From: Rhodohalobacter sp. SW132
Lineage (GTDB): Bacteria > Bacteroidota > Rhodothermia > Balneolales > Balneolaceae
Length of the DNA: 64,000 nt
Assembly: GCF_003390325.1 (NCBI RefSeq)
Contig: NZ_QUOK01000003.1
Coordinates: forward strand, 186,001-250,000
Reading direction: 5' to 3'
The notes below the pieces were generated by a model that did no database searches, was not told the DNA's origin, and saw only the letters and a list, made by a program, of their open reading frames with translations. Below, piece by piece: positions 2,776-7,848 of this stretch (its first letter is position 1; the number at the start of each line of letters is the position of its first letter). The position numbers and the translations under genes are program-made.

Positions 2776-5700
2776 CTAAGAACATCCGGTCGTCGAACCA
2801 CACGTAATACACTTCTGACACGTGCCGTTGCGGATCATGGTCATGCTGCCGCATTCGGGGCAGGAGTCGCCGGTGTAGCCGAGCTGCTTGGCGCGGTCGT
2901 AATCGCTGTCCGCTTTCTCTTCCTGCTGAAGCATGCCAAATTTACTTGTACCTGACGATACCGGTGTTACAGATTCAGGTTCGGGCTGCTTTTCAGGCGC
3001 GGCCGCCTGGCTTCCGGTTCCGGTTACCGGCCTGTCGTCATCCTCTTCGGATGGACGTAGTTTTCGTTTCATAATGTCTTCCGGCGGTACGTGCGCCAGG
3101 TCTTCGCGGCCCAGGTAGGTTACCGCAAGTTCACGGAAAATGTAGTCAATTACCGAGGTGCTCATCTTCACGTGAGGGCTGCCGTTTACCATGCCGCTCG
3201 GCTCAAACTTGGTGAACACAAACGCGTCCACAAACTCTTCGAGCGGAACGCCGTGCTGCAGTCCCAGTGAGATGGAGATCGCAAAGCAGTTCATCAGGCT
3301 CCGGAACGCGGCACCTTCGCGATGCATATCCACAAAAATCTCGCCGATCTGGCCGTTGTCATATTCGCCGGTGCGCAGGTAGACGCTCTGTCCGCCGATC
3401 TTCACTTTTTGGGTGTAGCCCGCCCGACGGTATGGAAGCCGCTGGCGTCGCGCCACATATTTGTGAATAATCTTCTCGGCCGCTTTCACCACCGTGTTTT
3501 GAGCCTCTTCGGTATCTTCATCCTCATCTTCCAGCTCCTCCAGAACGTCGCTCATGGAGTTCAGCGGCTGACTCAGCTTCGATCCGTCGCGATAGAGCGC
3601 GTTCGCCTTCAGCATCTTATCCCACGACTCCATGTAGGCGTCTTTGATATCCTCGATCGTCGCCTCGTTCGGCAGGTTGATCGTCTTGGAGATGGCGCCT
3701 GAGATAAACGGCTGGGCGGCGGCCATCATGTTGATGTGTCCCGATGCGGAGATGTAGCGCGTTCCGGTCCGGCCGCACTTGTTGGCGCAGTCGAACACGG
3801 CCAGATGCTCATCCTTCAGGAAAGGAGCGCCCTCCACGGTCATCGTGCCGCACACATAGTCGTTTGCATCCTGGATCTGCAGTTTTGTAAACCCGAGATG
3901 GCGCAGCATATCAAAATTCATGTCGTTGAGCTGCTCATCGGTAATCTCCAGCACCTCTTTGCAGAAATCTTCGCCGAGCGTCCACTGGTTAAAAGCGAAC
4001 TTGATATCAAAACTACTCGGAAGCGCCGCGTTGATCGCCTCGATCTTCTCATCGGTAAAGCCGATCTCTTTCAGGCTCTCCGGGTTGATGTGCGGTGCGC
4101 CGTTGAGCGTTCCGTACCCTTTGGCGAAGTTGATAATTTCGTCGATCTCCTTCGGCTCATACCCGAGGTTTTTCAGCGCAAGCGGCACGCTCTGGTTGAT
4201 AATCTTAAAGTATCCGCCGCCGGCCAGTTTCTTGAACTTCACCAGGGCAAAGTCGGGCTCGATTCCTGTGGTGTCGCAATCCATTACCAGTCCAATCGTT
4301 CCGGTCGGTGCAATCACGGTTACCTGCGCATTACGGTAGCCGTGCTTTTTGCCGAGCTCAACCGCTTCATCAGAATTTGCACGGGCAGCCTCCAGCAGGT
4401 AGGCCGGGCATACCGTTTCATCAATGCCGACCGGCGTGATCGTCAGATCTTCATATTCTTCTTTCGGCACGTTGTACGCAGCGCGCCTGTGATTTCGGAG
4501 CACTTTCAGCATATGTTCTTTGTTGGCGTCGTATCGCTCGAATGTGCCCAGCTCTTTCGCCATCTCGGCACTGGTGGCGTACGATTTCATGTGCATCATC
4601 GCGGTGATAGATCCCGCAATGGCGCTTCCTTTCTCGCTGTCGTATGGAGCGCCCTGCACCATCATTGCGGCACCGAGGTTGGCATAGCCGAGACCCAGCG
4701 TTCTGAATTTATAGGAGAGCTCGGCAATCTCTTTGGATGGAAACTGCGCCATCAGCACGGAGATCTCCAGCACAACCGTCCACAGACGGGAGGCGTGGTT
4801 GATCGACTCCACATCAAACTCCTGGCAGTCATCATCTTTGAAATACTTCATCAGGTTGAGCGACGCAAGGTTGCAGGCGGTGTTGTCCAGAAACATATAT
4901 TCTGAACAGGGATTGCTCGCCTTAATCGGCCCGTCTTCGGGGCAGGTGTGCCACTCGTTGATAGTGTCGTGATACTGCGTTCCGGGATCGGCACAGCTCC
5001 ATGCGGCGTACCCGATATCTTCCCAGAGGTCGCGTGCCCGCAGCGTTTTCATCGGTTCGGGATCGCGTCCCTCCTCTTCTGCATTTCGTTTCTCAATCCG
5101 CCCGTAGAGGTTCCACTCTTTGTCCTCTCTCACCGCTTTCATAAAGCTGTTCGGGATGCGAACAGAGTTGTTGGAGTTCTGTCCGCTCACCGTCAGGTAG
5201 GCTTCCGAGTTCCAGTCGGTATCGTAGGTGTCAAATTCGATGTCGGTAAAGCCCTGCGCAGCGAGCTGAATCACGCGTTCAATATAGTTCAGCGGCACCT
5301 GACTGCGTTTCGCTTCTTTAATCGCCTTGCCAAGTTTCTTGTTTTTGAGCGGATCGCGGCTCATCGCGCCGTTCATCTTCCGCCCGTCCACTTCAACCGG
5401 CGTGTTGCACAGCTGAATAATTTCTTTGAGGTGCTTCTCGGTCATTTTTGATCCGGAAACGATCGCGGCAACCTTCTGCTCCTCGCGGACTTTCCAGTTG
5501 ATATACTCTTCAATGTCGGGGTGATCCAGATCGAGCGTCACCATTTTGGCAGCGCGTCGCGTGGTTCCGCCCGATTTGATGGCACCTGCCGCACGATCGC
5601 CGATTTTCAGAAAGCTCATCAGGCCGGACGATTTTCCGCCGCCGCTCAGCTCCTCTCCCGCCCCGCGAATACCGGAAAAGTTGGAGCCTGTACCCGACCC

Positions 5701-6384
5701 GTATTTGAACAGACGCGCTTCCCGAACCCACAGGTCCATGATGCCGCCTTCGTTCACCAGGTCGTCATCCACGCTCTGGATGAAGCACGCATGTGGCTGC
5801 GGATGTGAATAGGCATCTTTTGATTTCTTCAGTTTGCCGGTCTTGGCGTCCACATAATAGTGCCCCTGGGCCGGACCGTTGATCCCGTACGCCCAGTAAA
5901 GACCGGTGTTGAACCACTGCGGACTGTTGGGCGCCGCCATCTGATTAGCGAGCATGTAGCAGAGCTCATCATAGAAAACCTTTGCATCATCCTCGGAATC
6001 AAAATAGTCGTGCTTCCAGCCCCAATAGGTCCAGCACCCGGCCAGCCGCGAAAACACCTGGCGGCTGTCAACTTCATGCGTATAGCGATCGTCCTCATCC
6101 AGTTTCTTCAGCGCGGTTTTATCCTCTTCCGACCGCTGCAGCCATTCCGGCACACCTTTCTCCTCCACCTTTTTCAGCTTGACCGGCACACCCGCTTTAC
6201 GGAAATATTTCTGAGCGATGATATCGGTAGCAACCTGCGACCAGCTCTTGGGAACATTTACGTTCTCCATCTCAAAGATGAGCGATCCGTCAGGATTTTT
6301 GATTACGGATCTTCTGGCTTCAAATTCGGTCTTCTCGAAGGGAGTTTTCCAGCTTTTTTTTGTGTGGAATCGGCTAAATTTCAT
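2776..6384 (-). CDS. nrdJ: Vitamin B12-dependent (class II) ribonucleotide reductase
   Basis: NrdJ reduces ribonucleotides to deoxyribonucleotides using adenosylcobalamin as radical source, so it works with or without oxygen. The 1202-residue protein contains the reductase core with the NPCSE motif, followed closely by ACNLASLNL, and a glycine-rich stretch near the N-terminal third ([11 protein letters not shown]). The extreme C-terminus has a zinc-ribbon-like cysteine set (C1175, C1178, C1189, C1192), the redox tail typical of the long NrdJ form. The coding sequence is visibly richer in G+C than its surroundings. A terminator lies downstream and a DnaA-box cluster upstream. I found no cobalamin riboswitch or clear NrdR boxes ahead of it. 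Confidence 0.96.
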
Positions 6385-6528
6385 AAATATAGATGTGTGC
6401 GGATTAAAAATATAATTACTTGTACTGCTTGCTAAATTCTCTTCGCTATAGGAGCTACAGCGTCGCTTCCTGCGTGGTTAATTAAGATATCCCCGCAGAG
6501 TTCGAGCTTCAACTTTTTTCTCAAATAC

Positions 6529-6753
6529 TTTTCCACAAACAGCCGGGGTTATCCACAATTGTTCTGAATATTTTTTTAGATCTTAATTTGAATATTTTTT
6601 GTGAAACCACGAAGCGACCGGTAAGAGCCTCAAAAACGGCGCAGGTAAGGTTGCACATAGATTATACACAAATCAAAATTGCATTAAAATGCTCTTAGAA
6701 CGATCTGAACATGATTCCTGAGAGTTATCCACATTTTCCCCGATTTATCCACA
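6529..6753 (+). promoter_or_regulatory. Cluster of DnaA boxes (candidate oriC or DnaA regulatory region)
   Basis: The strict box TTATCCACA occurs at 6549-6557, 6725-6733 and 6745-6753. TTATACACA, also within the TTATNCACA consensus, occurs at 6662-6670, and a one-mismatch TTTTCCACA at 6529-6537. All five are in the same orientation within 225 bp. The DNA immediately to the right (about 6780-6960) is very AT-rich with several T-runs and could act as an unwinding element. nrdJ reads away to the left and the thioesterase gene away to the right. DnaA is known to control ribonucleotide reductase genes in some bacteria, so gene regulation is the alternative to an origin. Confidence 0.6.
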
Positions 6754-6984
6754 TATTCAATCTCTGCTCTAATACGCTTGATAAAACTTCATAAAACCAA
6801 TTGAGAGCAGAGGTTGTAATTTCTATGCAGATTTTTTTTCTGATCAATATCGTCTCATTTCTGATTTAAATATCATGCTTAATATCATTTTTTCTTGCAT
6901 GAATTTTTACCAAAAAATTAATCATGAAAATGAGTTTTTTCCGAGACTTTTGAAGAGAGCTTTGAGGAGCCTGTTAACCTCAGT

Positions 6985-7120
6985 TCTATTCTTGAATAAT
7001 GGATAAAAACTCCCCCTTAGAAAAGGGGAATTGAGGGGGATGTCCATCAGATCTGGAAAAAACCGATGAACACCCCTCTATATCTCCCCTTTTTAGGGGA
7101 GACTTGATTCTGAATAAATG
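6985..7120. repeat. CCCCCTT-type palindromic intergenic repeat
   Basis: The segment holds a short hairpin of the type CCCCTT..AAGGGG followed by GAGGGGGATG. About 40 nt later an inverted partner reads ACACCCCTC...CTCCCCTTTTTAGGGGAG. The layout matches the 3' palindromic half of the repeats at 21373 and 44165, with lower sequence identity. No coding potential was recognised. Confidence 0.55.
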
Positions 7121-7256
7121 AATTAGATTATTAATCGAACTCAGGTTGCTAGATAATGATTTATGAAAAGAAAACAGGCCACCAAGGTCGCTAAATACGC
7201 AAAGAAGATGAATCAATAGCCACCGCGGCTTTTTGCGCCTCTTGCGGTAATAAAAC

Positions 7257-7343
7257 GAACTACCTCGGAGCAGAGCCAACGATGAATCAACCTGGATCCC
7301 ATAACTTATTGATCGATATGGAGATTATTCTAGAGTTTCCCTC
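7257..7343. repeat. Dispersed repeat, GAACTACCTCGG family (copy 1)
   Basis: It begins GAACTACCTCGG and continues through CCTGGATCC and TTGATCGATATGGAG. It is recognisably related to 9797-9884, and its first dozen bases are shared with the longer copies at 21373 and 44165. Purely intergenic. Confidence 0.5.
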
Positions 7344-7364
7344 TTTTTGCCTTTCACTTTTTGG

Positions 7365-7686
7365 TTCTACAGCTCCGAAGTTTCGGGGTTGTGGGTAACG
7401 AAAATCATAGCATTTCAATCTTAATAAGAAAATCTGAAGGATAATGATAGAATTAAGGGTAACAAATCAACAAGTGTTCTCGCCACGAAGGCACGAAAAC
7501 ACGAAGGTTTCACGAAGGTTAGAACCCTGATAATAATGCACTTCGTGGTACTTCGAGTCTTAGTGTCCTCGTGGTAAAAACGATTCCAAATAGTTTAAGA
7601 ATCTCTATTTCTTTCCAACATTGTCGAAGCATTTTTTAAAGCTGAATACATTTCACCCACAACCCCGAAACATCGGGGCTGTAGAA
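7365..7686. repeat. Inverted-repeat-bounded intergenic element containing a CCACGAAGG palindrome
   Basis: TTCTACAGCTCCGAAGTTTC and following bases (7365-7398) recur inverted at 7652-7686 with few mismatches, each arm also containing a small CCGAAnnTTCGG-type hairpin. Between the arms, 7483-7574 is a long imperfect palindrome starting CCACGAAGGCACGAA and ending in TTCGAG..CTCGTGG. There is no ORF inside. It looks like a non-autonomous, MITE-like insertion of about 320 bp. The rest of the 1.46-kb gap between nrdJ and the thioesterase holds nothing else I recognise. Confidence 0.5.
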
Positions 7687-7848
7687 TTCACTTTTTAAAT
7701 AGTTTTGCATCGCTTTTGGGTAAAATTAGTGGCTCAGGATCGTATTCACCCAATCTCTATTGATTCCATTTGTTTCTCCGCAATCTGTAACGTACCCTAA
7801 AATCATTCATCATTGTATCAAACAAACTTGTTATCTATTCAAACCATT

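Follow-up and report, generated by a model that had tools for sequence, protein, structure and literature searches.

A conserved pair of DnaA boxes upstream of the class II ribonucleotide reductase gene nrdJ in Balneolaceae

Locus, boxes and predicted promoter

The DNA analysed here, referred to as the window, is a stretch of 64,000 nucleotides from the genome of Rhodohalobacter sp. SW132 (C3:186001-250000; genome of 5.08 Mb in 45 contigs). Our subject is a cluster of five DnaA boxes upstream of nrdJ, the gene for a B12 (adenosylcobalamin)-dependent class II ribonucleotide reductase, in which the two boxes nearest the gene form a pair that is conserved, together with its distance to the predicted nrdJ promoter, across the family Balneolaceae. 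The assignment of nrdJ rests on profile matches (NCBIfam NF005736, 2022 bits at a cut-off of 1737; TIGR02504, NrdJ_Z, 583.5 at a cut-off of 400) and on orthologues, which are present in nearly all Balneolales genomes searched and, at full length, are 73-91% identical across the order. The features of the locus, in window positions, are:

2776-6384, minus strand: nrdJ, class II ribonucleotide reductase, 1202 aa
6484-6489, minus strand: predicted -10 element TATCTT (family consensus TATATT), within a block of conserved alignment columns
6507-6512, minus strand: predicted -35 element TTGAAG, 17 bp from the -10 element
6529-6537, plus strand: promoter-proximal DnaA box TTTTCCACA, centred at about -56 from the inferred start site
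6549-6557, plus strand: TTATCCACA, the other box of the conserved pair, 20 bp from the proximal one and centred at about -76
6662-6670, plus strand: TTATACACA box, located between the proximal pair and the distal boxes and found at the same position only in the congeners G001 and G002
6725-6733, plus strand: distal DnaA box TTATCCACA
6745-6753, plus strand: distal DnaA box TTATCCACA, forming a 20-bp-spaced pair with the box at 6725; paired distal boxes also occur in G002, L217, L233 and L257

The five DnaA 9-mers, reported in one orientation by the first-pass annotation, are all present as described, on the plus strand and within 225 bp. The perfect word TTATCCACA occurs 88 times genome-wide, against 31 occurrences of its reversed control, so that the word itself is favoured in this genome; even at this box density, three perfect boxes within 205 bp would be expected by chance in only about 5e-4 clusters per whole genome, and the five-box cluster is far above chance. 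On the parts of the contigs read (C1 completely and C3 mostly), exactly three loci carry at least three close DnaA 9-mers within 500 bp: nrdJ with five, prmC/dnaA with six (C1:194409-194729) and dtd/purM with five (C1:991489-991838).

When 42 distinct upstream sequences are aligned on the box pair, the predicted nrdJ promoter falls in a constant relation to the boxes. In 36 of the 42 (35 directly aligned plus G002, in which a pair spacer of 12 bp instead of 11 offsets the alignment by one), the motif TTG-N20-TATATT/TATCTT stands at the expected place with its -35 element exactly 16 bp from the proximal box, while the remaining six have the same elements shifted by 1 bp. The columns of the pair carry 1.46 bits of information on average, compared with 0.26 for the 40 columns farther from nrdJ. 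The corresponding transcription start is predicted near 6477, and the positions of the two boxes relative to it are those often occupied by an activator that contacts RNA polymerase; a repressor would also be compatible with this layout.

The AT-rich tract next to the boxes is real but unremarkable, as the nrdJ intergenic region is 63% AT, no richer than the other two box clusters (65% and 71%), and that of Balneolaceae relatives ranges from 64 to 77%. The genes nrdJ and a thioesterase do diverge, but more than 1 kb separates the boxes from the start of the latter at 7813. Much of the intervening DNA from about 6970 to 7600 is filled by several families of dispersed repeats of about 65-120 bp, mostly 75-90% identical, copies of which are present elsewhere on C3.

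Conservation across relatives

In a sample of 297 Bacteroidota genomes, the exact pair TTTTCCACA-N11-TTATCCACA lies upstream of nrdJ in each of the 36 Balneolaceae, is found anywhere in the genome in 4 of the 261 remaining genomes, and has no match in reversed controls (Balneolaceae against the rest, Fisher p = 3e-42, a value that ignores shared ancestry). In a closer set of 59 Balneolales genomes the pair was detected in 29, all Balneolaceae, with 29 of the 30 matches directly upstream of nrdJ, usually at about -150 and -170 from its ATG, and again none in the reversed controls. In 21 of the 29 Balneolaceae with enough upstream DNA, there is also a distal TTATCCACA that has the same orientation and lies between -330 and -425 relative to the ATG, and two more have TTTTCCACA there; by inspection, the spacings between distal box and proximal pair (160-196 bp) follow no single helical phase. 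The presence of boxes upstream of nrdJ in relatives favours a role tied to this gene, and as only 5 of 50 loci in relatives were found to have the thioesterase upstream of nrdJ at 1.5-3 kb or less, the boxes track nrdJ and not the thioesterase. Exact copies of the pair away from nrdJ were observed at G305:C16:77500 and G305:C32:359, which have similar spacers, and at G022:C7:8491.

In the other families of the Balneolales, the 450 bp upstream of nrdJ in 19 genomes hold 22 perfect boxes, where 0.08 would be expected from the density in one genome; the boxes occur in 13 of the 19, and their arrangements and orientations differ. Outside the order, no pair was found upstream of nrdJ in a named set that included Ignavibacteria, Planctomycetota, Alphaproteobacteria and others: some of these regions carry one isolated 9-mer and one carries two. 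Ignavibacteria and most of the more distant nrdJ genes are without boxes. This distribution indicates that the site arose or was fixed within the Balneolales, and that its present layout did so within the Balneolaceae. In four Microvirga genomes (L276, L280, L284 and L295), a single TTATCCACA or TTTTCCACA is found about 350 bp upstream of nrdJ, at nearly equal distance in the four species, and may represent an independent DnaA site.

Competing explanations for the box cluster

The first-pass annotation raised two options. Box position and spacing, conserved across the family, speak strongly for a DnaA switch of nrdJ, while a chromosomal origin at this locus is contradicted. We consider it very probable that the cluster is a regulatory region of the nrdJ promoter that is bound by DnaA and couples expression of the class II reductase to the replication cycle. 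We infer the binding of DnaA from the 9-mers, which are used again at dnaA and at dtd/purM; a regulatory effect on transcription is proposed, as is its direction. Several points weigh against this interpretation. In two Balneolaceae, G016 and L228, the available upstream sequence contains a single TTTTCCACA and no second box; the position of the distal boxes is variable, and about a quarter of the genomes have none; the members of the family are related, and the conservation counts are not independent events; the direction of regulation is not readable from sequence; and another protein could in principle read DnaA 9-mers.

That the nrdJ cluster is the chromosomal replication origin (oriC) is suggested by the box cluster itself, by the divergent genes and by the AT-rich DNA nearby, but we regard it as highly improbable. 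The GC skew of C3 is negative in 22 of 22 contiguous 20-kb blocks between 0 and 440 kb, and nrdJ, at 192 kb, lies inside this run, which extends for 190 kb on one side of it and for about 250 kb on the other, with no change of sign at the locus. In the relative G031, assembled as one 3.75-Mb contig, a coarse profile built from forty 20-kb windows and a finer stretch is mostly positive between about 0.28 and 2.15 Mb and mostly negative outside this range, with its minimum at about 0.25-0.32 Mb and its maximum at about 2.2 Mb; nrdJ, at 2.856 Mb, is about 1.2 Mb from the minimum, whereas purM, at 0.319 Mb, is close to it; dnaA is at 3.62 Mb. A better candidate is found at dtd/purM. In SW132, where the skew is noisy and was built from separate stretches, the minimum of the cumulative skew of C1 is at 986 kb, 5.5 kb from the box cluster there. 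This AT-rich cluster (L032:11489-11838) lies between the divergent genes dtd and purM, and of the 36 Balneolales genomes for which this region was available, 33 have at least one DnaA-like 9-mer in the 900 bp upstream of purM, with dtd beyond it in most. The skew minimum, the position of purM and the recurring boxes together make dtd/purM the best origin candidate and probably oriC, which provides a testable origin prediction for the Balneolaceae. With regard to a DNA unwinding element, the nrdJ cluster has AT-rich stretches of the kind also seen at the other two, and no run of four or more DnaA-trios ([T/A/G]AG) was found at any of the three clusters.

A site for DnaA titration or for DnaA-ATP conversion, comparable to E. 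coli datA or DARS and located near nrdJ by chance, would account for the five boxes and for their being one of only three clusters on the contigs read. It would require neither a pair fixed relative to the nrdJ promoter nor one that stays with nrdJ when the neighbouring gene changes, and we hold it unlikely as the main explanation, although the nrdJ cluster may have a side role in titration. The pair, TTWTCCACA, might also be read by a transcription factor other than DnaA. Direct repeats spaced two helical turns apart are a common arrangement for transcription factors, and the layout fits. However, the 9-mers are identical to the DnaA box at every position, and in this genome, which encodes one DnaA, they are present at dnaA and at the likely origin as well; this explanation appears to us a shade less plausible than titration or conversion. 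The intergenic region upstream of dnaA (C1:194362-194751; L002:2407-2796) contains six DnaA 9-mers, including TTTTCCACA-N2-TTATCCACA, which probably serve dnaA autoregulation, and perfect boxes are found upstream of dnaA in G031 and G043 too.

A putative DnaA switch of nrdJ and its relation to known systems

In the proposed DnaA switch of nrdJ, DnaA would bind the proximal pair, which adjoins the -35 element on its upstream side and has its two boxes two turns apart on the same face of the helix, and the more distant group, about 170-200 bp further up, would join them in DnaA binding, such that nrdJ expression would follow the amount or the nucleotide state of DnaA and, with it, the replication cycle. 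The fixed distance between boxes and promoter points to activation through contact of RNA polymerase with DnaA bound at the proximal pair, a direction of control towards which we lean modestly because the distance is so rigid. By analogy with E. coli nrdAB, repression could set in when more DnaA-ATP is bound, a state that possibly involves looping to the distal boxes.

The repressor NrdR (TIGR00244) scores above cut-off in none of the 59 Balneolales genomes, although 9 of 14 control genomes gave a positive result in this search. Seven weak matches cover part of the model only, and those in long open frames resemble the ATP-cone domains of ribonucleotide reductases. Control of nrdJ by NrdR was rejected on this ground, and a cobalamin riboswitch or other RNA element ahead of the gene was rejected as no Rfam family comes near its gathering score. 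A more far-reaching proposal, in which DnaA would be the main regulator of the class II reductase in Balneolaceae, acting through a polymerase-contacting pair and a looped distal site as a lineage-specific replacement of NrdR, is conceivable, but we put it forward tentatively and with some doubt.

The kind of system is known. In E. coli, where DnaA has been shown to act as a transcription factor at nrdAB, it is reported to activate or repress these genes depending on its amount and bound nucleotide, with low DnaA-ATP or DnaA-ADP activating and high DnaA-ATP repressing (PMC8203912), while a microarray study of dnaA46 favours repression instead (PMC2500167); a role of DnaA in controlling ribonucleotide reductase genes has also been proposed for B. 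subtilis and Caulobacter (PMC8203912). Balneolaceae share with nrdAB the DnaA 9-mers at a ribonucleotide reductase promoter, but differ in that the target is not a class I enzyme but the B12-dependent nrdJ, that the two boxes, on one strand and rigidly spaced, stand 16 bp from the -35 element, and that there is no recognisable NrdR. The proposed control of reductase genes in B. subtilis and Caulobacter is similar in kind and concerns other phyla. Promoters with NrdR boxes resemble that of nrdJ in their paired, helix-phased upstream sites, most of which have spacers of 15-16 bp (PMC12051234), whereas the sites in Balneolaceae are DnaA 9-mers with an 11-bp spacer, in an order with no NrdR above cut-off. 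A search of open-licence papers for DnaA boxes together with nrdJ gave none on DnaA control of this gene among the 25 titles listed. What makes the case in Balneolaceae a variant is that the target belongs to class II, that the architecture is fixed and that NrdR is apparently absent. It is probably a DnaA switch specific to this lineage, a counterpart of E. coli nrdAB with a B12-dependent ribonucleotide reductase as its target, and probably ties the supply of DNA precursors to the replication clock in this mostly marine and salt-loving family.

How deoxynucleotide supply is matched to replication is an old question, for which the evidence on DnaA and reductases comes mostly from E. coli nrdAB, where activation versus repression is still disputed. 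A family-wide promoter of fixed geometry on a B12-dependent enzyme, in genomes without recognisable NrdR, offers a simple second system in which to test this link. The genome of SW132 also encodes a class I reductase (C1:562961-566610), for which the sole nearby perfect box, at 563247, lies inside the gene of the large subunit.
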